From Natrinema gari JCM 14663 (GTDB taxonomy: Archaea > Halobacteriota > Halobacteria > Halobacteriales > Natrialbaceae): a stretch of 54,338 bases of DNA. Position numbers and translations under genes: made by a program. The notes below the pieces were generated by a model. The model ran no database searches and was not told the origin of the DNA. It saw nothing but the letters and a program-made list of their open reading frames with translations. Where the stretch lies: contig NZ_AOIJ01000030.1 in assembly GCF_000337175.1 (NCBI RefSeq), positions 83,705 to 138,042 on the forward strand. The letters run 5' to 3'. Positions 35,133 to 54,338 of this stretch are shown in pieces (position 1 is the stretch's first letter; the number at the start of each line of letters is the position of its first letter).

Positions 35133-35389
35133 CTCGCAAACTTCTGATGGCCGTAAAATAAGTTCGCAAGAAGTTGTAGTATATACTAAACGACATATTT
35201 TGGGGAGGGGTTCGTCACTATACAGACACGCCCTATCAGTAGAACCATCAAAACAAGGATTCCTTGTCAGCCCCCACAAAAATTGGCGTGGGATACTTGA
35301 CCAGATAATATTAGAATTTCTTCTCAATCTTATGTGGCGTAATATACTAGACGTATGGTTTTATGCATGTGGATTACTTATCATATTCT
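35133..35389. other. AT-rich island edge, upstream of mcrB
   Basis: This stretch of about 260 nt is strongly AT-rich compared with the core genome and has no recognised gene. It contains a perfect 12-bp palindrome TAGTATATACTA (35177-35188), possibly regulatory, and AATATACTAGACG near the mcrB start. Confidence 0.45.
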
Positions 35390-36619
35390 ATGGCAACTAG
35401 TGATGGGGCAGACACATATACTGTTGAGAATATTAAGGAACTACTGGATCGTCCATTAAAATCAAATACGGAGATGGCAGTTGATGTTGTGAAAAATGCT
35501 GCAGACGAAAAAGCACTCAAACTACTGATAAAAGAACACAATATCGACACAGTTCACGACGGTAAAAAAGGGCTTGGTCCTGTTAGACAAGCACTATTGG
35601 AGTCGGAAAAAGCACCCAGAAGCTTAAAACAGAAAGTTGCAACTCGTGGCGATGACACTACAGAATTGGAAAGTCTCGTGCCCGATTCCGCTCGAAAGTC
35701 GGCATTAGGGGCTTTAGAAGCAGGAAAGCCAGTTGTGCTCTATGGACCAACAGGTACTGGTAAAACTACATTTGCTAAACAACTAGCCCTAGAGACAAGT
35801 GTCGGGTATACGCTAGAGACAGCATCTCCATCTTGGACAAAACAAGATATCATCGGCCGAGTGGAGCCTGAATACGATAAGGATACTATTAGCTACCGCA
35901 AAGAACCAGGTTGCGTCTCTAAAGCTGTTCTTCGAGCACGAGACTTCAGTGAGGATTATGCTGTAATAATCGATGAGCTAACACGTTCAGATATCTCTAA
36001 GATTTTTGGTCCACTCTATACTGCCATTGAAAACAACCATCAAACCATTTTCACTACTGACAATGGAAGGACTGTTGAGTTAGATCCAAGTGTGAATATT
36101 ATATGTACAATGAATATGTCAGATCGCACAGTAAATGAACTTGATAATGCAATCACTCGACGGTTTGCAATGATTGAAATATCTGAGTACGAACAAGACG
36201 ATCGACAGACATTGTTCTCAACATGGATAGATAAGCACCTGACTGATACCATGGTTGATCCGGAGGAGCTTAAAAGGCTGTTTGAAACAGATTATTCCCG
36301 TCTAAATGGAATTGGTAGTGAGAGCAACAACGATGGAGTCATGCAGTTTGGTCCCATGCACTACGAGGACGTTGCAAACTTCATTGGTAAAACAACAAAA
36401 GTTGATGGGGTCTATGAAGATGAACCGCGTCTCGCCGTTGGTGAAGGATTTAGAACATATATTGTCCCTCGGTTGTTGAATTCAGCAACATATTCACAGA
36501 TTAACAAGCTTGTAGACCATTATGAGATACTAGATGATGAATTCGCATTTGATCTGTCACGTGCAACGGAGCTAGTACAGTCTGAACTTGAATCAGAAGA
36601 GCAGAGAATGGGTACATAA
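35390..36619 (+). CDS. mcrB: McrB-like AAA+ NTPase of a type IV restriction system
   Basis: The 409-aa product starts MATSDGADTYTVENIKELLD. After a roughly 100-residue N-terminal region comes the AAA+ module: Walker A VLYGPTGTGKTTFAKQLALE, Walker B with McrB-type context AVIIDELTRSDISKIFGPL, and the McrB signature TMNMSDRTVNELDNAITRRF. The GTPase McrB normally drives translocation of the McrC nuclease on methylated DNA. The known methyl-binding N-terminal domain is not recognised, so the target signal may differ. Base composition is AT-rich, unlike the core genome, showing transfer. Confidence 0.88.
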   Translation: MATSDGADTYTVENIKELLDRPLKSNTEMAVDVVKNAADEKALKLLIKEHNIDTVHDGKKGLGPVRQALLESEKAPRSLKQKVATRGDDTTELESLVPDSARKSALGALEAGKPVVLYGPTGTGKTTFAKQLALETSVGYTLETASPSWTKQDIIGRVEPEYDKDTISYRKEPGCVSKAVLRARDFSEDYAVIIDELTRSDISKIFGPLYTAIENNHQTIFTTDNGRTVELDPSVNIICTMNMSDRTVNELDNAITRRFAMIEISEYEQDDRQTLFSTWIDKHLTDTMVDPEELKRLFETDYSRLNGIGSESNNDGVMQFGPMHYEDVANFIGKTTKVDGVYEDEPRLAVGEGFRTYIVPRLLNSATYSQINKLVDHYEILDDEFAFDLSRATELVQSELESEEQRMGT

Positions 36620-36625
36620 CCCATC

Positions 36626-38407
36626 ATGAGTAGCAGTACTCTCCCGCATCGAGTACAAATTCGAGAGCGGGACGAGAAGACGATCGAAGATTGTCCACCA
36701 GAAATTGGGAAGCAACTCCAACGGGCTGCATTTGATAAGGTAGCCGCGAATGAGTTTGAAAAAACTCGTACTACGATAGGCAATGAAGAGGAACGTAGCG
36801 TTGTGAAAGCCACCGTAGATGACGGAACGCTCACGATATCTGTTGAGGATGTAGTGGGCGTAGTTAACCTCACCCCCACGTCGAAATTACAAATAAATCC
36901 CAAGATTGGTTGGGAAGAAATATTAGAGATGTTTCTTGCTATTCAGCAACGCAACCGCTCTCTAAGATATCATGGAATCCCGATAGATGATTTTCTCTCA
37001 GAAGACATAGAAATAAATGATATATTTGTAGTAATCACCATAAATTTTCTAAATAGCATTCAACCAATCCATCGAAACGGATTCATTAGACAATTCAAAA
37101 ATGAACAATACGATGCTGTGAGCGGCCGTGGGAGAATTAATGTCGAAGAGAGTTTATTGAACAAATCACGCGGAATCCCTAAACATCGGTTTGTTCAGAA
37201 GAAAGTAGATTATTCAACACCAGCAAACAGTCTCATCTACTTAGCCGGAAAACAACTGCTGCGCTTATTTCAGGATTCTGCCGGAGAGTATGAGCATAGC
37301 CATTTCTTCCAGATATTTAGCGAATTACGAGAACAGATAAGATATTTTGATGATATAGGCATTTCTGACGAAGGTATAAGTCTGAAAGAGATTAAGAAGA
37401 CAGATGTTAAGGATCTTCCAAGACAACGTCGTTACTACGAAGAAGCAGTCAAAACCTCTAAGACCATCCTTTCATCTACAACAGGACAGTCGCTTGAATC
37501 TGGCCGAGAAGATTTGACAATTGATTTTATCCTCGACATGGATCAAGTCTTTGAGACTTTCTCCCAATTAATTCTAGAAGAAGAAATCAAGCGTCTCAAT
37601 GATATCTCTCCTCACAATGTTGATGGAGAAGTAACTGTAGAGTATGAGCCTACCTTACAAATATTTGATGATGATACTGTGGGGACATATCGACCAGACC
37701 ATGTCCTTAAAAATTCAGAAGAAGTCATCGCAGTTCTTGACAGCAAATACTACTCACGAAATAATGATCCAAGTCAGCGAGGAGAAGTCCGATCTCGTAT
37801 GTTCAGTTATGCTTATCTATTGGACGCCGACGATATGGCGTTTCTTTGTCCATTTGGAGAACCGGTTTCAAGAAAACTCGCCCTTCGCGAAGGAGAAGTA
37901 ACACTAGTCAGGCCTGGGGGCGACTTCAGTATTGACTCCTACCGGGAGGCGATTCGTAGCTATCTTGAATCTCAGTTCGACATCGATAGATCAATTGAAG
38001 AACTTCGTGATGATCTTAGCTATCGAATTGCGCATCAAGATGTTAGGACAATAGATATAGATAATATATCCCAATATCCTTCACTTCAAGTAGGAAGAAA
38101 TAATATCACTTCCTTTGCTCGAGGAGTCCGTAGGTCTGCGATTCAACAATCAACCGAGGCTGCACGATTCGACAATCTCTCAAAGTCATTTCGACATAAA
38201 CTACTTAGTCAGATCAAAAACGGGTTTTCACCAGCTGACCAATATGATTTTTGTATCCCCCTATTCATACCAAATAATGCAAATGAAAACATTCCACACG
38301 AGAAGGACAATTGGGAAGGTGAGGCGATAAAATACTACAATGTACGAACCCGACATGGAGAAATAGTTGAGGTTTCAGATCCAAAATACATAAAACTAAA
38401 ATGGTAA
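36626..38407 (+). CDS. mcrC: McrC-like nuclease subunit of a type IV restriction system
   Basis: The 593-aa product follows mcrB by 6 nt. It shows the McrC N-terminal part (about 60-230, LTPTSKLQINPKIGWEEILE) and the PD-(D/E)XK nuclease core: TYRPDHVLKNS, then EEVIAVLDSKYYSRNN, giving D...D-x-K. The C-terminal extension of about 190 residues (TIDIDNISQYPSLQVGRNNI) is longer than in E. coli McrC and unassigned. It is expected to cut DNA together with McrB. The gene is AT-rich like mcrB and shares its operon. Confidence 0.85.
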   Translation: MSSSTLPHRVQIRERDEKTIEDCPPEIGKQLQRAAFDKVAANEFEKTRTTIGNEEERSVVKATVDDGTLTISVEDVVGVVNLTPTSKLQINPKIGWEEILEMFLAIQQRNRSLRYHGIPIDDFLSEDIEINDIFVVITINFLNSIQPIHRNGFIRQFKNEQYDAVSGRGRINVEESLLNKSRGIPKHRFVQKKVDYSTPANSLIYLAGKQLLRLFQDSAGEYEHSHFFQIFSELREQIRYFDDIGISDEGISLKEIKKTDVKDLPRQRRYYEEAVKTSKTILSSTTGQSLESGREDLTIDFILDMDQVFETFSQLILEEEIKRLNDISPHNVDGEVTVEYEPTLQIFDDDTVGTYRPDHVLKNSEEVIAVLDSKYYSRNNDPSQRGEVRSRMFSYAYLLDADDMAFLCPFGEPVSRKLALREGEVTLVRPGGDFSIDSYREAIRSYLESQFDIDRSIEELRDDLSYRIAHQDVRTIDIDNISQYPSLQVGRNNITSFARGVRRSAIQQSTEAARFDNLSKSFRHKLLSQIKNGFSPADQYDFCIPLFIPNNANENIPHEKDNWEGEAIKYYNVRTRHGEIVEVSDPKYIKLKW

Positions 38408-42484: not shown

Positions 42485-43291
42485 ATGCGAGTGATAGCAC
42501 ACCTGCACGCGCGTGCGGACACGGCTTACGACAACACGTACCATCATAAGCTTCGGGGTCGAATCTGGAACGCGCTTGACGGGACCGAATACGACGAAAT
42601 ACACGACGAGGATCGTCCGAAGGGATTCACGTACAGCAATCCATTTCCACCAGGAGATATGCGGGAGGGCGACGAGCGAACGTTACTCGTAGCGTCGCCG
42701 CACGAAGAACTACTCGCCAACGTCGCTGCCGATTTCAAAGACGATCGGGAGTTGAACATTGGCGAGATGCCCTTCCACGTCAATTCGGTCAACGGACTAG
42801 CGACCGATGTGGGAGAACCGGGTACGTCGGGTACGATCGAGACGGGGACGGGCGTGCTGGTTCGGATCCCGCCGTGGCGTTTCGAGGAGTACGACATCGA
42901 AACCGACCACGACGAGGCGGAATTCTGGCGACCAGAACATACGATGGAGCCGTTCCACAACCAGATCGAGAACAACCTCGACAAGAAACACGACCGGTTT
43001 TGTCCCGACTACCTGCCCGGGCCGTCCGAAACTAGCGACGACTTGTTCGACGGCGCAGACCTGATCAAGACGTTCTCAATCCCGGTGACCGTGACACAGG
43101 GTCAACGCGAGACGTGGGTGTTGAGCAAATGGCGATTCGACTACACCGTCCGCGATGACCACCACCGACGCCACCTGAATCTCGCGCTCGACACCGGTAT
43201 CGGCGAGCGGAATTCGCTCGGGTTCGGGTTCGTCAACATCACCGAGAAAGAGGACCAGCGATCGGGACGGAGGGAGCGCGTCGATGCTTGA
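42485..43291 (+). CDS. cas6: Cas6 CRISPR RNA endoribonuclease
   Basis: The 268-aa protein begins MRVIAHLHARADTAYDNTYH, with the N-terminal ferredoxin-like strand and a His in the position of the Cas6 active site (NTYHHKLRGRIWNAL). It ends with the family glycine-rich loop TGIGERNSLGFGFVNI at about residues 237-252. Cas6 cleaves the pre-crRNA in each repeat, here probably leaving an 8-nt 5' handle with sequence GUCGAAGC. It is the first gene of the cas operon and overlaps cas8b by 8 nt. Confidence 0.92.
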   Translation: MRVIAHLHARADTAYDNTYHHKLRGRIWNALDGTEYDEIHDEDRPKGFTYSNPFPPGDMREGDERTLLVASPHEELLANVAADFKDDRELNIGEMPFHVNSVNGLATDVGEPGTSGTIETGTGVLVRIPPWRFEEYDIETDHDEAEFWRPEHTMEPFHNQIENNLDKKHDRFCPDYLPGPSETSDDLFDGADLIKTFSIPVTVTQGQRETWVLSKWRFDYTVRDDHHRRHLNLALDTGIGERNSLGFGFVNITEKEDQRSGRRERVDA

Positions 43292-45413
43292 GCCCAAGCA
43301 GTTCCGCAAGGAGTACGATGGAGAACTGGAAGACGAACTCCCGGAGCGGCCGGTCTCGTCGCTCCGGGACATCCAGCACCTCTACGGACGACTGTACACG
43401 CTGGCGACGGCCGGTGGCGGCGACTACGCGGCGTATCTGACACCCGATCAGGCCAACGACCTGATCGGCGCGGAAGAGAGCCTGATCGTCGTCCGGGTCG
43501 ATATCTCCGGCGACCGGCCCGCACTCGACGCAGATGAACCCGTCAAGATCACCCAGTACGCCGTCGATCTCGTCCAGAAAGTCGCCCACTGCAAGTACAA
43601 CGCCGCGCGCGGGATCGACCACAGCGTTACTCACCGCTCGGGACGTAACAGCGATCCTGAGAAGTTGGCCCGCTACGCCTGCGAGCGCCTGACCAAGTGG
43701 GCGACTGACGATGTCGTTCAGGATGTTGCCGACGAACATCCGGATGGAGAGGTCATTCGCGGGCTGGCAACCGTCGGCGATGAGGAATCGAACCTCGACC
43801 GGATCCGGTCCGCAGTCAAAGCCGAACTCGGCGGTTCGACTACGGCACTCCTAACCGTACAGGTCCGCCGAGAAGCGGGTGCGGACTACGAGTGGCCCGG
43901 CGACGTGCCAGTGTTCAATGAGGCGATGCGTGCACGGAAACTCTCGAAACTGGTCTCGAAGGGACAGGCGACGAACTCCGCTGGCCAGGCCACTGATCTG
44001 ATCAGCGGTGAGCGCACCCGAACCGTCGGCACTGCGGAGGATCCACTTAACTACTTCCTCGGCAAGCAGATGGAGAAGTTCCCGGGGCTGGATCCGGACG
44101 AAGCGTGGCGGAGCCACCCCATCTCCGAGGACGGGGCAGTCACGCTGATGAACGCCGAGGAGTTCGTCGACGCCTGTTCCTACCGGACGTTCAACGCCGA
44201 CGTGTACTACCTCCCGTACTTCCTCGGTCGACCGACGCCTGCGGAGAGCTACAACCTGTACGCGGCGCTTCACAGCGTCACACAGGCCGACGACATGGGT
44301 CCGGTCCAGACGCTCTACGACGAGTTGGGTGATCACGAAGCGAATTCCGAGGGCCGATTGCGATTTTACGTCGCAGCGGTCATGAAACACCAGATGTCCC
44401 GCTTCGACGTGTACGGTGAGACGCTGAACGGCCGGATCCACTACCCGACTGATGTCGGCCAGAAACACGAGAAGGTCGCTGAAAGCTGGGTCTTCGACGA
44501 GGACGACGACAGGAATGAAGACCGAACACCGCCGATTCCCTCCCACGAGGAGTGGGCGCTGACGGCCCCGTTTGACCACGAGCAGAAGGTGCGCGAGATG
44601 GTCGCGTCAGGTGCCTACCTCTACAGGACCTTTCCCTTCACCGACGAGGACACCGATGCGACGGTCGATGACGAGCGAATCGATATCCACGTCTCGATAC
44701 TTGCTGGCGACCCTGTCCCGCGGCATCAACTCATCAGCGCCTACGTTGAGCGACTGCTCGATCGAGACGGCGACGACGTACCGGAACTCCTGATCGCCTC
44801 CCAGTTCGCACAGTTGTGCGCGCTCGAAAACGCCGATCTCGTGACGACGGACACCGGCGATACCGAATCGACACTGATCGACGGTCCCGATTACGACACC
44901 ATGGAACCAGAACACGCACGAAACGACGGCGGTACGGCCGCCCTCGATCGCACCGAGAAACTCGAATCGTTCATCGAACAGACGGACAGTCTTGACGACC
45001 CCGAACGGAAGGGGGCGTTCCTGCTCGGTACGCTCGTCGGCCAAGTCGGCACCTACCAGCAGGGCTACCACGACCGGTCGACTACCGTCATCGACCAGTA
45101 CCCGATCAAGTCGATGACCAAAACCAAGATCAAGCGTATCACCCAGGAGGTAATCGACAAAGATGTCGTCTACTCCCGAGAGATGGCCAAGAAAGGATCG
45201 AATATCAACTCAACGATGTACAAAGAAGTCACGAACGCTATCGTCGAAACTATGGCTGGAAACGATCCGTCAGGCTGGGTGATCAGCACCGATGATTTGC
45301 GCTTCTACTACGCCCTGGGCCTGACCTACGGTATGAACGACCGATCGACGAACGAGGACGACGCAACGACCGACGACGAAACCACCGATGAATCCCCTGA
45401 CACCAATGAGTGA
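43284..45413 (+). CDS. cas8b: Cas8b, large subunit of type I-B Cascade
   Basis: The 709-aa product is the haloarchaeal Cas8b/Csh1 type: ERPVSSLRDIQHLYGRLYTL near the N-terminus, the middle FNADVYYLPYFLGRPTPAES region, and the C-terminal segment KSMTKTKIKRITQEVIDKDV with NINSTMYKEVTNAIVETMAG. It recognises the PAM in the interference complex. In other type I-B, I-C and I-D systems a small subunit (Cas11) is translated from an internal start in the 3' part; the ATG at 44901 would give about 170 residues covering that part. The gene is GC-rich with an acidic C-terminal tail and overlaps cas7 by 8 nt. Confidence 0.92.
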   Translation: MLEPKQFRKEYDGELEDELPERPVSSLRDIQHLYGRLYTLATAGGGDYAAYLTPDQANDLIGAEESLIVVRVDISGDRPALDADEPVKITQYAVDLVQKVAHCKYNAARGIDHSVTHRSGRNSDPEKLARYACERLTKWATDDVVQDVADEHPDGEVIRGLATVGDEESNLDRIRSAVKAELGGSTTALLTVQVRREAGADYEWPGDVPVFNEAMRARKLSKLVSKGQATNSAGQATDLISGERTRTVGTAEDPLNYFLGKQMEKFPGLDPDEAWRSHPISEDGAVTLMNAEEFVDACSYRTFNADVYYLPYFLGRPTPAESYNLYAALHSVTQADDMGPVQTLYDELGDHEANSEGRLRFYVAAVMKHQMSRFDVYGETLNGRIHYPTDVGQKHEKVAESWVFDEDDDRNEDRTPPIPSHEEWALTAPFDHEQKVREMVASGAYLYRTFPFTDEDTDATVDDERIDIHVSILAGDPVPRHQLISAYVERLLDRDGDDVPELLIASQFAQLCALENADLVTTDTGDTESTLIDGPDYDTMEPEHARNDGGTAALDRTEKLESFIEQTDSLDDPERKGAFLLGTLVGQVGTYQQGYHDRSTTVIDQYPIKSMTKTKIKRITQEVIDKDVVYSREMAKKGSNINSTMYKEVTNAIVETMAGNDPSGWVISTDDLRFYYALGLTYGMNDRSTNEDDATTDDETTDESPDTNE

Positions 45414-46458
45414 ACATTACCCCACTGTCTCGAACAGATCCGAGATCGTCTTCACGTACGACGCAGTCGACGCGAACCCCAACGGTAACCCTCTCAGCGG
45501 CGCGAACCGACCACGGATCGACCCTCATACGGATCAGGCGATCGTCACCGATGTTCGCCTCAAGCGCTACCTGCGGGATCAACTACAGGACGACGGCCAC
45601 GGCGTCTACATTCGCAACGTCAAGGAAGACGGCGATCAGGCGACTCGCGAAGACCTCCTCGAGGACCGGCTCAAAGACATCGATCTCGACGATGTCGACG
45701 AGGACGATATCGAGAACGCCGTCTTCAGTCAGTTCCTCGAAAACAGCGCCGACATTCGCTACTTCGGTGCGACGATGAGCGTCGACATGGACGACGAGAA
45801 AGTCGACCATCTCCCGGATCATTTCACTGGTCCCGTCCAGTTCTCGCCCGGCAAGTCGCTCCACCGAGTCATGGAGAACGAGGAGTACAACAGCCTCACC
45901 AGCGTCATCGCGACCGGCGACGACAAGGCACAGGGCGGGTTCGACCTCGACGACCATCGGATCCAGTACGCCTTCATCGGGTTCCACGGGCTCGTCGACG
46001 AACACGGGGCCGAAGACACGCTCCTGTCGGATCGGGACGTGCGGCGGCTGGATACGCTGTGCTGGCGTGCGCTGAAGAATCAGACGATCAGCCGAAGCAA
46101 GGTCGGACAGGAGCCCCGGCTCTACCTCAGAGTCGAGTACGCCGACGAGAGCTTCCATCTCGGTGGGCTCGATCAGGACCTCGAGCTCGACGGTGAGGAA
46201 TCCAACCCCATCGAGGAACTTCGGAACGTCCGTGACATCTGTGTCGACGTGTCGGCACTGCTCGAGCGACTCGAGGATGCGTCCGATCGGATCGATACCG
46301 TCCACGTCGTCGCCAGCGATGTCCTCGAAGTCTCCGTCGACAGTGAGACGGGCGGCAACGAGTTCCTCTACGACGCCCTCGAATCGGCGGTCGGTAATGA
46401 ATCCGTCCGGGTGATCGATGTGTACGAAGACGCGAAAGCAACCGCGCCGGAGGAGTGA
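45406..46458 (+). CDS. cas7: Cas7 (Csh2-type), backbone of Cascade
   Basis: The 350-aa product starts MSEHYPTVSNRSEIVFTYDA and has the Csh2/DevR-type opening TYDAVDANPNGNPLSGANRP, which is diagnostic. Further on are IRYFGATMSVDMDDEK and VQFSPGKSLHRVM. Copies of Cas7 coat the crRNA spacer. The ATG at 45406 overlaps the end of cas8b (ATGAGTGA) and is preferred over ATG 45388, which would add six residues. Confidence 0.93.
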   Translation: MSEHYPTVSNRSEIVFTYDAVDANPNGNPLSGANRPRIDPHTDQAIVTDVRLKRYLRDQLQDDGHGVYIRNVKEDGDQATREDLLEDRLKDIDLDDVDEDDIENAVFSQFLENSADIRYFGATMSVDMDDEKVDHLPDHFTGPVQFSPGKSLHRVMENEEYNSLTSVIATGDDKAQGGFDLDDHRIQYAFIGFHGLVDEHGAEDTLLSDRDVRRLDTLCWRALKNQTISRSKVGQEPRLYLRVEYADESFHLGGLDQDLELDGEESNPIEELRNVRDICVDVSALLERLEDASDRIDTVHVVASDVLEVSVDSETGGNEFLYDALESAVGNESVRVIDVYEDAKATAPEE

Positions 46459-46461
46459 CCT

Positions 46462-47250
46462 GTGACCGAGCACGCACCGACCGGATCGGGACTCCCCGAT
46501 GGGGCTGAGACGTGCCTGTCGTTCACGGTCAGCGGACCCTGGGGACACTTCCGGCGTATCGAGGGTAACATCGTGAAACAGACGTATCGGGTCATCCCGC
46601 GGACGACTGTCGCCGGCTTGATCGCCGCGATGCTGGGCATCGAACGCGACGGCTACTACGATCTGTTCGCCCCGGGCGAGTCGCTGGTCGCAATCGAACC
46701 GACGAGCGAACTGCGGACGATGAAGCTACCGATGAACACGCTCTCGACCGCCGACGAACACTTGTCGTCGCTGAACCCTCGCGGGAAACTTTCCATCAAA
46801 CTCCCCGATCCGTCCAAGCCCCGACAGCAGCACAATTACGAGGTCCTCGTCGATCCTGCCTATCGAATCGACGTGTGGCTCGACAATGACGAGCGGTACA
46901 ACCAGCTCCGCTCGCTGCTCGAATCGGGGGAGTCGTACTACGTCCCGAGCCTCGGTCTCTCTGAGTACTTGGCGACAGTCGATTACCACGGTGAGTTCCC
47001 GATCGAGCAGGGTCCCAGCGATGACACGGTGGCTATCGACTCGACCGTCCCCGAGGCTGTTGACTCGATCATTCCTGATCCGGAGACACGCTACCAGATC
47101 GAGCAGACGCCCGCGTTCATGGAACGTGACGACGGTGGCCGGACGACAAGTGCGTTCGTCTCCTACGCCTACAACCCAGACGGTGGACCTCTCACGTTCA
47201 CTGACGTGTCGACGTACTCGGTCGATGATCGAACCGTGGTGTTCACCTGA
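46462..47250 (+). CDS. cas5: Cas5 (type I-B)
   Basis: The 262-aa product starts at a GTG (46462) 3 nt after cas7 and has the Cas5 N-terminal signature ETCLSFTVSGPWGHFRRIEG followed by YRVIPRTTVAGLIAAMLGIE. The middle KLPMNTLSTADEHLSSLNPR region and YYVPSLGLSEYLATV complete the fold. Cas5 caps the crRNA 5' handle in Cascade. Its TGA overlaps the cas3 ATG (TGATG). Confidence 0.93.
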   Translation: MTEHAPTGSGLPDGAETCLSFTVSGPWGHFRRIEGNIVKQTYRVIPRTTVAGLIAAMLGIERDGYYDLFAPGESLVAIEPTSELRTMKLPMNTLSTADEHLSSLNPRGKLSIKLPDPSKPRQQHNYEVLVDPAYRIDVWLDNDERYNQLRSLLESGESYYVPSLGLSEYLATVDYHGEFPIEQGPSDDTVAIDSTVPEAVDSIIPDPETRYQIEQTPAFMERDDGGRTTSAFVSYAYNPDGGPLTFTDVSTYSVDDRTVVFT

Positions 47251-49829
47251 TGGTGGATGCGCCGATCTCTCATCCCGCCGAGGACGGCGATGAGGCGACG
47301 TTCCTCCTCGATCACCTAGACGAGGTGGCCGGGCGGGCCGAGTCCGTCGTCTCCGCGGACGCAACGACGATCGGCGGCGACCCGCTCACTGAGATGATAG
47401 CGATCGTGGCACGGTGTCACGACTTCGGGAAGGCGACGACGTGGTTTCAGGAGTACGTGATCGACAAGCGAGATACTAGCAAGCGGACGAACCACTCCCT
47501 GTTCGGGGCCTATCTCGGGTACTACGTCCTCGACCGGCTAGGCTACGACAGCGAGGACTGCCTGGCGGCCCTCGTTGCGCTCGCGAAACATCACGGCCGG
47601 CTCCCCGATGTCGAGGAATACGTCGAAGACATTTCGCGCTTCGAGAACAAGAGTGAGGCGAGCAACGAGCGCCAGCGAGTCGTGATCGAACAGGTCGGGA
47701 ACGTCGACGACCATCGCCGGACGTTCGCACGGTCGTTCGTCGCTGACGCGACCGACGGTAACGGGTCGTGGGACGAGTTCGTCGAGCGGATCGAGGACGA
47801 GGAGGATTCCCTGTTCGATACAGTCTTCGAACATGTCTCCATGTTCGCCCTCGGCAGCGACCGCTCGGCACCTTCCGACGAGTTCTACGAACTGCTCCTC
47901 CAGCTTTGGAGTGGACTGATCCTCGCCGACAAAACGGTGGCTGCCGGTATCGAAGACGACCATCTCGCCGCGTCCGACCCGGACGCTCGTACGCTCTCGG
48001 AGTACATTGCGGACCTGGGAGGAGATGCCGACGAAGACAGTAAGGCCGACGCTCTCGATACGCTCCGTGATGAGGCGAGAAAAGACGTACTCGACGGTGT
48101 CGACCAGTTCCGCGACTCGGATGCGTCAATCGCAACGCTAACACTGCCAACCGGAATGGGCAAGACGCTGACCGGTCTCAATGCTGCCCTCGCACTCCGA
48201 AACGAAGGTGAACGTGTCGTCTACGCGCTCCCGTTCACCTCCGTGATCGATCAAGTCGCCGACGAACTCACAGACGTGTTCGACACCGACGCTCGAGACG
48301 ATCTGTTGACGATCCATCACCACCTGGCCGAGACGGTGACGAAACTCGGTGATCCAGATGATGATCCCGACGGGCATGCCCGACTCGCGGAGATGGTTGC
48401 CGAGAGCTGGCGTTCCGGGATGACGCTCACGACGTTCGTCCAACTCTTCGAGAGCCTCGTTGGCCCGAGTAACACCCAGTCGATGAAACTGCCGGCGCTG
48501 TACGATTCCGTGATCGTGCTAGACGAGCCCCAGGCGTTGCCAATGGAGTGGTGGAAGCTCGTCCGCCGTATCACGACGATCCTCACAGAAGAGTATGACG
48601 CGACGATCATCGCTATGACTGCAACCCAGCCGGCAGCAAACGACGAGGATGGCGCGTCTCAAGCCCTGTTCGACGACGCGTTCGAACTGGTCAACGACGT
48701 GAATAGATACTTCGACCACTTCGAACGAGTCGAGTACGAGGTTCACGATTCTGTACTCGCGTTCGATGACACCGACGCGACAGTAGACTACGAGACCGCT
48801 GGCCGGACGATCCTCAACGAGACCGGCGAGACCGAGTCGGTACTCGCGATCTGTAACACCATCGACAGCGCCACCGAACTCACGGATGCGATCGAGGAAC
48901 GCGAGGCGGTCGTCGACGTTGGTCGGTGTCTCGAGGAGGAACTCGGCGGTGACGGTGTCGACGTGGAAGCTCTCGTCGAGCGGGTTAAGGCGGCCTTCGG
49001 CCCGGACGAACGAGCGCTCGTCCACCTTTCTACTCGCCTTCGTCCGCGTGACCGACTCGCGCTCATCGAAGCGACGAAGCGACTCACTGAGCGCGACGTA
49101 CCGGTCGTGGCAGTGTCGACGCAGCTCATCGAGGCCGGCGTCGATATCAGCTTCGATCGAGTGTACCGCGACATCGCACCGATCGATAGCGTCGTTCAGG
49201 CGGCGGGTCGGTGTAACCGGTCGTTCGAGAGTGACCTCGGAACGGTGACGCTTTGGTGGCTCGCTCCACCAGCGGGCACGACCAAGACCCCAGCACAGGC
49301 TGTTTACGACTCTGAGGGCGTAAGCACGATATCGCTGACCGCCAGGACGCTCGACGCGATCGATGCAAGCGACGGAACCGTCGCCGAACGGACGATGACC
49401 CGCGAGGCTGTCCAGCACTACTACGGACTCATCGCCGACCGGAATCCGGGATCCCCGCAGTACGTTGAGTGGGTCGATGAGGCAAACGGAGCGGAGCTCG
49501 GGGACCTCTCGCTGATCGGCAAACGCGAGAGCGTCGACGTAGTTGTCTGCCGGACTGACGTTGATCGAGACCTAGTCGATGCGATGGAGATCGCTCTCGA
49601 CGAGTTCGACTACGGGACATTCGGCGACCGCCGCGACGAAGCCAAGGACATCACGGTCTCGCTTCCGATCTACAGTCAGGACTCGACCGAGGCCGAGACG
49701 GTCAAGGATCTCAAAAAACTCGACGATACCGATCTCCGCGTTCTCAGGCGACCGGAGAGTAAAACCTACTTTGACGAGACGAACGGCCTCGCAGTCGAGG
49801 GACCGTCCGTCGACGACCGGTTCCTATGA
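47250..49829 (+). CDS. cas3: Cas3 helicase-nuclease
   Basis: The 859-aa product combines an N-terminal HD nuclease with a superfamily 2 helicase. The HD part shows SHPAEDGDEATFLLDHLDEV and VARCHDFGKATTWFQEY, plus LVALAKHHGRLPD. The helicase has Walker A LPTGMGKTLTGLNAAL, a DEAD-box variant VLDEPQALPMEWW (DEPQ), SAT-like AMTATQPA and motif VI VVQAAGRCNRS. It is recruited by Cascade to unwind and shred the targeted DNA. All catalytic motifs look intact. Its stop overlaps the cas4 ATG by 4 nt. Confidence 0.95.
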   Translation: MVDAPISHPAEDGDEATFLLDHLDEVAGRAESVVSADATTIGGDPLTEMIAIVARCHDFGKATTWFQEYVIDKRDTSKRTNHSLFGAYLGYYVLDRLGYDSEDCLAALVALAKHHGRLPDVEEYVEDISRFENKSEASNERQRVVIEQVGNVDDHRRTFARSFVADATDGNGSWDEFVERIEDEEDSLFDTVFEHVSMFALGSDRSAPSDEFYELLLQLWSGLILADKTVAAGIEDDHLAASDPDARTLSEYIADLGGDADEDSKADALDTLRDEARKDVLDGVDQFRDSDASIATLTLPTGMGKTLTGLNAALALRNEGERVVYALPFTSVIDQVADELTDVFDTDARDDLLTIHHHLAETVTKLGDPDDDPDGHARLAEMVAESWRSGMTLTTFVQLFESLVGPSNTQSMKLPALYDSVIVLDEPQALPMEWWKLVRRITTILTEEYDATIIAMTATQPAANDEDGASQALFDDAFELVNDVNRYFDHFERVEYEVHDSVLAFDDTDATVDYETAGRTILNETGETESVLAICNTIDSATELTDAIEEREAVVDVGRCLEEELGGDGVDVEALVERVKAAFGPDERALVHLSTRLRPRDRLALIEATKRLTERDVPVVAVSTQLIEAGVDISFDRVYRDIAPIDSVVQAAGRCNRSFESDLGTVTLWWLAPPAGTTKTPAQAVYDSEGVSTISLTARTLDAIDASDGTVAERTMTREAVQHYYGLIADRNPGSPQYVEWVDEANGAELGDLSLIGKRESVDVVVCRTDVDRDLVDAMEIALDEFDYGTFGDRRDEAKDITVSLPIYSQDSTEAETVKDLKKLDDTDLRVLRRPESKTYFDETNGLAVEGPSVDDRFL

Positions 49830-50386
49830 CTGACTTGTCGGCCGACCCCGTCGAGCGGTTTCTCACCGCGGCCAGAGACGAGACCGCCGAATTCCCCTTC
49901 CGGCTGACCGGTGTCATGTTCCAGTACTACGTCGTCTGTGAGCGAGAATTGTGGTTTCTCAGCCGCGACGTGGAGATAGACCGCGACACGCCAGAGATCG
50001 TCCGCGGCAGCGACGTGGACGACTCGGCCTATTCGGATAAGCGCCGAGACGTGCGCGTTGACGGGATCATCGCGATCGACGTGCTGGACAGCGGTGAGAT
50101 CCTGGAAGTCAAACCCTCGTCGTCGATGACCGAACCAGCGCGGTTGCAGTTGCTGTTCTATCTCTGGTATCTCGATCGGGTCACTGGCGTCGAGAAGACC
50201 GGCGTCTTGGCACATCCAACAGAGAAACGACGTGAGACAATCGAACTAACCCCGGAAACCAGCGCCGAAGTCGAATCGGCTATCCGCGGGATTCGCGAGG
50301 TCGTAACCGCAGAATCACCGCCACCGGCCGAGGAGAAACCAGTCTGTGACTCGTGTGCCTATCACGACTTCTGCTGGAGCTGTTGA
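49826..50386 (+). CDS. cas4: Cas4 exonuclease for spacer acquisition
   Basis: The 186-aa RecB-type nuclease has RDVRVDGIIAIDVLDSGEIL with VKPSSSMTE (D...E-x-K) and the QLLFYLWYLDR motif (QxxxY). The Fe-S cluster Cys residues are in YYVVCERELWF and at the end in CDSCAYHDFCWSC. Cas4 trims prespacers and helps select the PAM and orientation during adaptation. It is separated from cas1 by 2 nt. Confidence 0.94.
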   Translation: MTDLSADPVERFLTAARDETAEFPFRLTGVMFQYYVVCERELWFLSRDVEIDRDTPEIVRGSDVDDSAYSDKRRDVRVDGIIAIDVLDSGEILEVKPSSSMTEPARLQLLFYLWYLDRVTGVEKTGVLAHPTEKRRETIELTPETSAEVESAIRGIREVVTAESPPPAEEKPVCDSCAYHDFCWSC

Positions 50387-50388
50387 CC

Positions 50389-51381
50389 ATGAACGACAAC
50401 TACCACGTGTTTTCCGATGGACGGATCGAACGCCAGGACGACACGGTGCGTGTCGTCACCGACGACGGCGAGAAAAAGTACCTCCCGGTCGAGAACGCCG
50501 AGGCGATCTTCCTCCATGGCCAGATCGAGTACAACACTCGTTTCATTTCATTCCTCAACCAGGAAGGCGTCGCAGTCCATGTCTTCGGCTGGCACGACCA
50601 TTACGCCGGCTCAATTATGCCAAAACGGGGCCAGACCTCCGGCCAGACAATCGTTGATCAGGTCCGGGCCTACGACGACCCGGACCATCGCCTCGAACTG
50701 GCGAAGGCGTTCGTCGATGGGAGCATCCATAATATGCGCTCGAACGTCACCTACTACAATGGGCGTGGGCACGACTTCGAGCATGTGCTGGAGGAACTGG
50801 AGGATTCACGGGCGTCGCTCGACGGAATGGGAACGATCGACGAGACGATGGGCGTCGAAGCGCGCGCCCGGAAGGCGTACTATTCGACCTTCGACGAGAT
50901 CCTTCCCGAGGGATTTGTCTTCGGCGGCAGGCAGTATAACCCACCGAATAACGAAGTCAATAGCCTGATTTCCTTCGGCAACTCGCTGGTCTACGCGAAC
51001 ATCGTCTCGGCGATCCGCGCGACTGCACTGGATCCGACGGTCAGTTACCTCCACGAACCCGGTGAACGGCGATACTCGCTGGCACTGGATATCGCCGACC
51101 TGTTCAAGCCGCTGCTCGCCGATCGAGTCATCTTCAGGCTCGTCAACCGCGGCCAGCTAACTACCGACGACTTTGAAGACGATATGAACTCCTGTCTCCT
51201 GAGCGAAGTCGGCCGTAAAACCTACTCGAAAGCATACGAGGAGACTCTCGACGAGACGATCGACCATCCGGACTTAGGAAAAAAGGTAAGCTACCAGTAT
51301 CTCCTCCGTGTCGAAGCGTACAAACTGAAAAAACATCTCCTGACCGGCGAGGAATACGTCCCGTTCCGACGGTGGTGGTGA
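50389..51381 (+). CDS. cas1: Cas1 integrase
   Basis: The 330-aa product starts MNDNYHVFSDGRIERQDDTV and carries the metal-binding catalytic residues of Cas1: Glu in GVEARARKAYYSTF, His and further acids in YLHEPGERRYSLALDIADLF. With Cas2 it inserts new spacers next to the leader. The ATG at 50389 is 2 nt after cas4; an in-frame start at 50353 lies inside cas4 and is rejected. Its stop lies 2 nt before the chosen cas2 start. Confidence 0.95.
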   Translation: MNDNYHVFSDGRIERQDDTVRVVTDDGEKKYLPVENAEAIFLHGQIEYNTRFISFLNQEGVAVHVFGWHDHYAGSIMPKRGQTSGQTIVDQVRAYDDPDHRLELAKAFVDGSIHNMRSNVTYYNGRGHDFEHVLEELEDSRASLDGMGTIDETMGVEARARKAYYSTFDEILPEGFVFGGRQYNPPNNEVNSLISFGNSLVYANIVSAIRATALDPTVSYLHEPGERRYSLALDIADLFKPLLADRVIFRLVNRGQLTTDDFEDDMNSCLLSEVGRKTYSKAYEETLDETIDHPDLGKKVSYQYLLRVEAYKLKKHLLTGEEYVPFRRWW

Positions 51382-51383
51382 GT

Positions 51384-51647
51384 GTGGTCTACATCGTCGT
51401 GGTCTACGACATGGAAGCCGACCGGACCCACAAGATGCTGAAGTTCCTTCGGAGATATCTCACACACGTCCAAAACTCCGTGCTCGAGGGGGACGTGACT
51501 GAGGGCGACCTCGAAAAGATCCGATCCGGCGTCAATGAAGTGCTCAAACCCGGAGAGTCGACGATTATCTACCGCGTCTCCTCTGAGAAGATGGTCGAGA
51601 GAACCGTCTTTGGTGACGATCCTGCTGCCGATGATCAGTTCCTCTAA
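51384..51647 (+). CDS. cas2: Cas2
   Basis: The 87-aa product reads from GTG 51384 as VYIVVVYDMEADRTHKMLKF, with the YDMEADR site of Cas2, and continues with YLTHVQNSVLEGDVTEGDLE and STIIYRVSSEK. Four in-frame GTG codons lie between 51372 and 51384; 51384 gives the family-typical start two residues before the first beta strand. Earlier starts would overlap cas1. Cas2 is the structural dimer at the centre of the Cas1-Cas2 integrase. Confidence 0.92.
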   Translation: MVYIVVVYDMEADRTHKMLKFLRRYLTHVQNSVLEGDVTEGDLEKIRSGVNEVLKPGESTIIYRVSSEKMVERTVFGDDPAADDQFL

Positions 51648-51759
51648 CCGTCCCCGGTTGTTTCATCGACCCCAGGGGGTTCAGAGGTTATCGAGGGTCG
51701 ACGGAAACGATGAAGTGTGAACGGCCAATAGAGCTGTTTACGTGGTCTGACTGGCCATG
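51648..51759 (+). promoter_or_regulatory. CRISPR leader
   Basis: These 112 nt separate cas2 from the first repeat and should hold the array promoter and the integration-guiding sequence. The region is not strongly AT-rich. ATAGAGCTGTTTACG (51729-51743) is the most promoter-like part, about 20 nt before repeat 1. Confidence 0.7.
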
Positions 51760-54338
51760 GTTACAGACGGACCCTTGTGGGGTCGAAGCGGAGTAGATCG
51801 TGCCGCCCGGGCGATCGTCGAGCCATGTTACAGACGGACCCTTGTGGGGTCGAAGCTTCGTCGTAGTACAGCGTCATCAGAGAACCTCCAGGTTACAGAC
51901 GGACCCTTGTGGGGTCGAAGCTCCTCGTTGACCATCACGCAACTCTGGACCTCGTAGTGTTACAGACGGACCCTTGTGGGGTCGAAGCTCAGGGTCCTCC
52001 ATGACGCCCACGTAAGCCTCGTACTGTTACAGACGGACCCTTGTGGGGTCGAAGCTTACTCAACGAGTCGATGCCATTGGTATCACAGAAAGTTACAGAC
52101 GGACCCTTGTGGGGTCGAAGCGACAGGCAGTTGATCGTCACCGCGTGGGGGAGTTGTTACAGACGGACCCTTGTGGGGTCGAAGCCTAGGAGCCACAACA
52201 GGTGAAATTATCACAACACTGTTACAGACGGACCCTTGTGGGGTCGAAGCACGGGGCCGAGCCGAACTCGGTGTCGGTGAACGGTTACAGACGGACCCTT
52301 GTGGGGTCGAAGCTCGAGGAGGCCTTCATCCTCGAGTTTCTGCATCCGAGTTACAGACGGACCCTTGTGGGGTCGAAGCACTACTCATGAACCTCACTGA
52401 CAAAGAGAAAGAGCTGTTACAGACGGACCCTTGTGGGGTCGAAGCGACGGTTAACCGCGTTCACAAGGCAAAATAGGGACAGTTACAGACGGACCCTTGT
52501 GGGGTCGAAGCCCCATCGCCGACGTGACCGACGCGAACGTGACCGTGTTACAGACGGACCCTTGTGGGGTCGAAGCCAAACGTTCCAAAACCTCTAACTG
52601 TTACAAACGCTATGGTTACAGACGGACCCTTGTGGGGTCGAAGCCGGCAGATACAATCGAACAATCGGATACAATTCACGGTTACAGACGGACCCTTGTG
52701 GGGTCGAAGCGAGTCCTGGTCGTCGTGGTCGGCGAGGGCCAGTCCAAGTTACAGACGGACCCTTGTGGGGTCGAAGCAAGCACATCCGCCCGGAGACAGT
52801 CAGCGCTCGGACCTGTTACAGACGGACCCTTGTGGGGTCGAAGCTCCCCGCCCCAAGGGGCGGGGTTTCCTCGCTACAGGTTACAGACGGACCCTTGTGG
52901 GGTCGAAGCCGGGAGGAGTTCGGGAGCGTCGACAGCGACGTCCAGGTTACAGACGGACCCTTGTGGGGTCGAAGCCTCCCCGCCCCAAGGGGCGGGGTTT
53001 CCTCGCTACAGGTTACAGACGGACCCTTGTGGGGTCGAAGCTCGAGCGCGATCCCAGCGCCGTCGGCGGCCACCGCGTTACAGACGGACCCTTGTGGGGT
53101 CGAAGCGCCGTCGGGAGCGTCCCAACGGTTGATCGTGCCAAGGTTACAGACGGACCCTTGTGGGGTCGAAGCGGTCGGCCAAGATCGACGCCTCGCGTGC
53201 GGGGCTTAGTTACAGACGGACCCTTGTGGGGTCGAAGCGATTTCGGCGTCTATTACCAAGCTGCAGACTATGGTTACAGACGGACCCTTGTGGGGTCGAA
53301 GCCTCGAGATCCAGATCGCTAATCGGTTCGAGGTCGTGTTACAGACGGACCCTTGTGGGGTCGAAGCGGGACGCCCTTTGCCTCTGCCAGCGCCGCGACG
53401 GAGTTACAGACGGACCCTTGTGGGGTCGAAGCGTCAAACAAGACGTTTGTCGTATGGCAAGGGGCCGAGTTACAGACGGACCCTTGTGGGGTCGAAGCGA
53501 CGCTCCCGTCTGGATTGAGTAGGGTAAACTGGGTTACAGACGGACCCTTGTGGGGTCGAAGCGATATACGCCAGGCCATGAAGCGCCGCGAAGACCTGGT
53601 TACAGACGGACCCTTGTGGGGTCGAAGCGTCGTCCAGCGCCCAGGTGAGCTGGAAGAGAAGAGTTACAGACGGACCCTTGTGGGGTCGAAGCCCGTCGAC
53701 GGCGGTATCGGTCGGCCTTCCGGGTCGGGTTACAGACGGACCCTTGTGGGGTCGAAGCAATTCCAGGCCGCCTTCGTCGCTCCCGGTCCCGGAGGTTACA
53801 GACGGACCCTTGTGGGGTCGAAGCGCCTGGACGGCATACGGAAAGTAAACCCATGAGAGTTACAGACGGACCCTTGTGGGGTCGAAGCTCTCGGAGAACG
53901 TCGACGGCGATTACGTCGTCGTCGTTACAGACGGACCCTTGTGGGGTCGAAGCTCATAATGCGGCTGGGGACTGTTCCCCAGGTCTATCGTTACAGACGG
54001 ACCCTTGTGGGGTCGAAGCCGGTGAAACCTGGGGTCCCTGGACGGTTAAGCGGGTTACAGACGGACCCTTGTGGGGTCGAAGCTTCGGACCCGTCGAAGA
54101 ACGGCGACGTCGGGTCGTCGTTACAGACGGACCCTTGTGGGGTCGAAGCCTTCCGAGCGGGGCCGGTGGCACGGCCGCGTTCGGGTTACAGACGGACCCT
54201 TGTGGGGTCGAAGCTGCTATCAGGCTGTGCATGGGGTTGTTAAAGATGCGTTACAGACGGACCCTTGTGGGGTCGAAGCGTTACTCTGCATCTCAGACAT
54301 CGGCTCCCCGCAACGTGTTACAGACGGACCCTTGTGGG
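51760..54338 (+). CRISPR. Type I-B CRISPR array, 39 full repeats plus one cut by the window end
   Basis: The 30-nt repeat begins GTTACAGACGGACCC and ends TTGTGGGGTCGAAGC, with an internal GACCC/GGGTC hairpin. It starts at 51760, 51827, 51892, 51959, 52026 and so on to 54250; the 40th copy at 54317 is cut after 22 nt. All copies appear identical. The 39 spacers are 33-38 nt long. Orientation is leader, then array on the plus strand, directly after cas2. Spacers 17 (52845-52879) and 19 (52976-53011) are the same 35-nt sequence apart from one extra 5' base. The array continues beyond the window. Confidence 0.99.

Follow-up and report, generated by a model that had tools for sequence, protein, structure and literature searches.

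Two spacers offset by one base in a Natrinema type I-B CRISPR array match the left end of a TnpB transposon

Introduction

How does a CRISPR array come to hold what is nearly the same spacer twice, shifted by a single base and with a different spacer in between, and what was that spacer taken from? The question is raised by the 54,338-nucleotide stretch of Natrinema gari DNA analysed here (the window), which ends inside a CRISPR array whose spacers 17 and 19 form such a pair. The pair carries a strong hairpin, from which the original prediction traced it to a transposon that encodes TnpB. The TnpB family is the ancestor of class 2 type V effectors, so the pair would link a class 1 CRISPR system to the family from which those effectors arose.

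Results

The array lies downstream of a cas operon on the plus strand (42485..51647), in which Pfam and NCBIfam models recognize Csh1, Csh2, Cas5h, Cas3, Cas6, Cas4, Cas1 and Cas2. The genes run in the order cas6 (42485-43291), cas8b/csh1 (43284-45413), cas7/csh2 (45388-46458), cas5b (46462-47250), cas3 (47250-49829), cas4 (49826-50386), cas1 (50353-51381) and cas2 (51372-51647). The combination of Cas8b/Csh1, Cas7/Csh2 and Cas5h with Cas3, Cas6, Cas4, Cas1 and Cas2 assigns the system to type I-B. The interval from cas2 to the first repeat (51648..51759, plus strand) is by its position the leader region. Array 1 follows on the same strand (51760..54338) and continues past the end of the window as far as position 143097 of the contig, C30; its 30-nt repeat is GTTACAGACGGACCCTTGTGGGGTCGAAGC (Rfam CRISPR-DR24). 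Intact repeats of array 1 are 100% identical, the last copy excepted, and insertions or deletions after capture therefore look rare. A McrB-like AAA ATPase and a McrBC-component protein, probably a restriction defence system, are encoded upstream of the cas operon at 35363-38407.

Another array of the host, array 2, has a variant repeat (GTTTCAGACGG...; contig C32:29971-33912, 60 repeats). The final base of this repeat is G throughout one contiguous block and C in the next, which indicates that it is copied from the repeat; we rejected derivation of this base from the protospacer-adjacent motif (PAM). Exact spacer duplicates also exist in this genome. One spacer of array 1 (GTCGAGATGG... / GTCGAGATGGCCG...) occurs at two sites separated by about 22 spacers, apparently as a true duplicate, and another (CCGCTCGAG... 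/ CCGCTCGAGCAGACC...) is identical in arrays 1 and 2. The draft assembly contains single-N joints within array 1, at repeated spacers (near C30:138043, 138912 and 140440), with none near spacers 17 to 19.

Spacer 17 (52845-52879, plus strand; 35 nt, TCCCCGCCCCAAGGGGCGGGGTTTCCTCGCTACAG) and spacer 19 (52976-53011, plus strand; 36 nt, CTCCCCGCCCCAAGGGGCGGGGTTTCCTCGCTACAG) have 35 nt in common and differ by a single extra C at the 5' end of spacer 19. They end at the same 3' position, and once the final C of the repeat is counted the two copies are identical over 66 nt. The spacer between them, 18 (52910-52945, plus strand), is unrelated to either, and our searches returned no credible protospacer for it. 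The original prediction had described this arrangement exactly in its coordinates, sequences, 1-base offset and intervening spacer. The two arrays contain 169 distinct spacers, among which no other pair shares at least 16 nt, exact duplicates aside; this excludes a chance origin of the likeness. Both spacers contain the 20-nt palindrome CCCCGCCCCAAGGGGCGGGG (52846..52865 and 52978..52997, plus strand), and these are its only two sites in the host genome. The predicted hairpin, at -19.7 kcal/mol, is tied for third among the 169 spacers (mean -8.2, sd 4.1).

A pattern search of 391 haloarchaeal genomes, allowing up to 3 mismatches, identifies the source. Perfect 36/36 protospacers occur at three sites in two congeneric genomes (G034:C26 and G034:C71, both Natrinema pallidum DSM 3751, and G091:C1), and protospacers with 1-3 mismatches occur in seven more genomes of the same genus or family. 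All of them lie, with small variations, in one context: CGAACGCGATTC, the spacer 19 sequence, then CAAGATGA. In annotated plasmid copies that include a TnpB gene, tnpB starts about 220 nt downstream of the protospacer, which places the target at the left end (LE) of the element, where the palindrome forms the near-terminal hairpin. The original prediction was thus right about an IS200/IS605 element that carries tnpB and wrong about which end was taken: the right end (RE) has a distinct hairpin (CCCGCCGTAAACGGCGGG) and matches the spacer at no better than 20/36, and we rejected it as the origin. A viral source was rejected as well, since neither the spacer nor the LE tail has an exact match in IMG/VR and the phage search returned no match spanning 80% of the spacer.

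The N. pallidum element encodes an RNA-guided nuclease of the TnpB family (NF040570, E=3e-38; PF07282). To define the boundaries of the element, we fused its N. pallidum flanks without the insertion; a search of the genus with this sequence recovered uninterrupted (empty) sites in G004 (91%) and also in the host (C30:173851-174170, 87%). By this empty-site comparison the element is 1,663 bp long, and its insertion point falls immediately 5' of ATGA (TCAT on the tnpB strand), without target duplication. With subterminal hairpins at both LE and RE, the TCAT motif and no duplicated target, its sequence has the features of an IS200/IS605 element, of the TnpB-only IS1341 type; tnpB and a 44-aa ORF leave little space for tnpA. 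The LE stems show paired changes among copies (C-G/T-A, C-G/G-C) that keep the hairpin.

Two smaller features of these elements were also seen. The RE of the N. pallidum tnpB element (L067:2297-2458, minus strand) resembles Rfam HgcC (RF00062, E=0.0018, below the gathering score), which may be a family of the TnpB guide-RNA (omega-RNA) type; Rfam finds nothing at LE. An ORF of 44-45 aa between the LE hairpin and tnpB, divergent from tnpB (L032:1332-1466, with equivalents in L019, L020, L023 and L027), has a weak ribbon-helix-helix/ParD-like match (E=0.09) and is possibly a regulator of the element.

The original prediction also held that such an element may exist in the host chromosome. This was not borne out. 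There is no protospacer copy within 3 mismatches outside the array, the only host TnpB above the cut-off (on contig C40) is 31% identical, and the site occupied in N. pallidum is intact. What remains is a relic at C30:67918, a short sequence in which RE and LE termini are fused, with a spacer match of 26/36 and no PAM; it resembles the terminal-only PATEs described in Haloquadratum walsbyi (PMC3119063). Self-targeting by spacers 17 and 19 was rejected on these grounds, and without a full target in the host they should cause no autoimmunity. A TnpB at least 60% identical is present in about half of 29 genomes of the genus, and a close relative is absent from about nine of the 29, the host among them; absence alone is therefore no proof of immunity.

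The PAM of this host was learnt independently of the pair, by searching phages, plasmids and as many as 47 related genomes with the other spacers; the congener searches scored 8-10 candidates per genome, so that the resulting table is a sample. Of the 17 other spacers for which a placement was possible, 13 have NTC in register, two are slipped by +1 (spacers 8 and 20) and two by -1 (A1_81 and A1_87), although several placements have at least 4 mismatches and these fractions are rough. The ten best matched (at most 2 mismatches) comprise six in register, two at +1 and two at -1. All 17 thus lie within one base of the register of a haloarchaeal TTC-type 5' PAM; a rough base-composition estimate gives a chance of about 4e-14 that every one of them would fall within a base of a TC. 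At the LE protospacer TTC stands directly before the spacer 19 target (context CGATTC), and TCC precedes the target of spacer 17 (context GATTCC), which is slipped by +1. The same slip is seen at unrelated protospacers for spacer 8 (52251..52283, plus strand; TTC+C, on an N. thermotolerans plasmid) and spacer 20 (53042..53076, plus strand; GTC+C, on contig C99 of N. pallidum). It is therefore a documented behaviour of this array. The skipped base is C in all three +1 slips, the same as the final base of the repeat, so these slips may instead reflect repeat trimming that differs by 1 nt. The commonest spacer length in the host is 36 nt (32%).

Discussion

We consider it likely that type I-B capture took place twice, in separate events, at one LE protospacer and so produced spacers 17 and 19; the transposon concerned circulates in Natrinema and related Natrialbaceae. 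Two captures with a 1-nt offset, as originally proposed, are the best and simplest explanation, and the host's mapped spacers show the same slips. If the array grows at the leader, spacer 19 would be the older of the two, cut beside the canonical TTC PAM, and spacer 17 would be a later capture from the same site in which Cas1-Cas2(-Cas4) slipped 1 nt into the protospacer; the sequence shows the target, its position, the PAM, the slip register and the absence from the host, and the order and the separateness of the events are inferred. The 3' ends run against this reading: a +1 slip at the commonest length of 36 nt would have shifted the 3' end as well, and those of the two spacers are identical.

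The identical 3' ends would also fit a route in which spacer 19 was captured once and copied by repeat recombination, and the copy, spacer 17, then lost a C at its junction (GCC to GC). The exact duplicates, one within array 1 and one shared between the arrays, indicate that recombination can copy spacers in this genome. Nevertheless, we think this route unlikely. Spacer 18 was not copied, so the order 19-18-19 requires more than a single tandem duplication, and a further 1-nt deletion is required in an array where all intact repeats but the last are the same. The occurrence of 1-nt slips in 4/17 mapped spacers, including +1 slips at unrelated targets, favours two captures over duplication followed by deletion. 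An assembly or sequencing artefact, the real array holding one copy or two identical copies, is very improbable: the draft does break at repeated spacers within the array, but no joint lies close to spacers 17-19, the unique spacer 18 separates the copies, and the assembly broke at a repeat-spacer-repeat stretch of 93 nt, longer than the 66 nt that the copies share.

Two captures are compatible with more than one occasion of capture. The transposon end may have been taken simply as part of chromosomal or plasmid DNA of a sister species during mating or uptake, an idea that we hold tentatively. The congener contigs that carry the perfect protospacers are chromosomal or large, N. pallidum contigs are matched by spacers 20 and 87 of the array too, and spacer capture in haloarchaeal mating has been described (PMC12814878, citing Turgeman-Grott 2019). 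We found no conflict between this idea and the target, and it would change only the occasion of capture; however, two captures at one site suggest that a multi-copy element was met repeatedly. It is tempting to speculate further that Cas1-Cas2 prefers IS200/IS605 hairpin ends as substrates, these being single-stranded while the element transposes or exposed when TnpB cuts; an end would then be captured repeatedly, and TnpB elements would feed CRISPR memory against themselves. We regard this as highly unlikely. Among the 391 haloarchaeal genomes, searched for the array 1 type of repeat in one orientation, the LE tail stands beside a repeat only in this host, and two other LE-tail matches in that survey fall outside arrays and are due to chance. 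This negative recurrence lowers the general idea, and we rejected LE as a general capture hot spot.

The expected consequence of the pair is interference with DNA that bears LE. Because the TTC PAM and the CTCCCCG seed are both kept in 17 of 22 distinct LE contexts, the crRNA of spacer 19 should guide Cascade and Cas3 onto such DNA, and spacer 19 could act on much of the element family. The crRNA of spacer 17, which reads TCC, would probably be weaker in interference. Both crRNAs would carry the -19.7 kcal/mol hairpin, which covers most of the seed and might hide it and weaken the crRNA; we infer that both spacers could provide immunity despite it. For the transposon, a constrained hairpin together with a conserved PAM and seed may make escape harder.

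Spacers against mobile elements, the TTC PAM of haloarchaeal type I-B systems (PMC3936756) and slipping (PMC5059440) are already known, and we read the present case as CRISPR immunity of the ordinary kind, aimed at a transposon family already described, in which the second capture is clearly slipped. Haloarcula hispanica type I-B, in which 94% of captures have a TTC PAM, shares the type I-B cas genes and the TTC upstream of the protospacer (PMC3936756); in contrast, the Natrinema host takes NTC, and 4/17 of its mapped natural spacers, by the rough count above, are slipped by 1 nt. Slipping in Pectobacterium atrosepticum type I-F likewise consists of 1-nt shifts around the canonical PAM, in which plus slips keep a near-normal length (PMC5059440). 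Unlike that system, the arrays here are natural archaeal type I-B arrays, and a slipped spacer stands beside the in-register twin from the same site. The element itself has the palindromes near both ends, short target motif, lack of duplication and terminal-only relics of haloarchaeal IS200/IS605 (IS1341-type) elements and PATEs (PMC3119063), and differs in that its LE hairpin is a CRISPR target. In the open literature that we searched, no paper describes spacers directed at the hairpin ends of TnpB elements, which does not prove that none exists. The value of the pair lies in being a clean natural case, in which one transposon site was captured both in register and with a one-base slip, and in which the donor, the PAM, the element boundaries and the host's empty site are all identified.

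Several other spacers of this host have targets worth recording. Many match the related plasmid-like elements G375:C6 (57.9 kb) and G307:C6, and the match positions on G375:C6 are those of plasmid NZ_CP084477.1 of Natrinema sp. DC36. The virus SNJ2 has a perfect match to spacer A2_56 and an imperfect one to A1_44. Spacer A1_87 (C30:141198-141231, past the window) has an exact 34/34 self-target at C35:19566-19599; a related plasmid match is annotated as trehalose-6-phosphate synthase. GTT precedes the target and the C lies inside the spacer. With this -1 slip the effector would read something other than TTC, which may explain how this self-target is tolerated.
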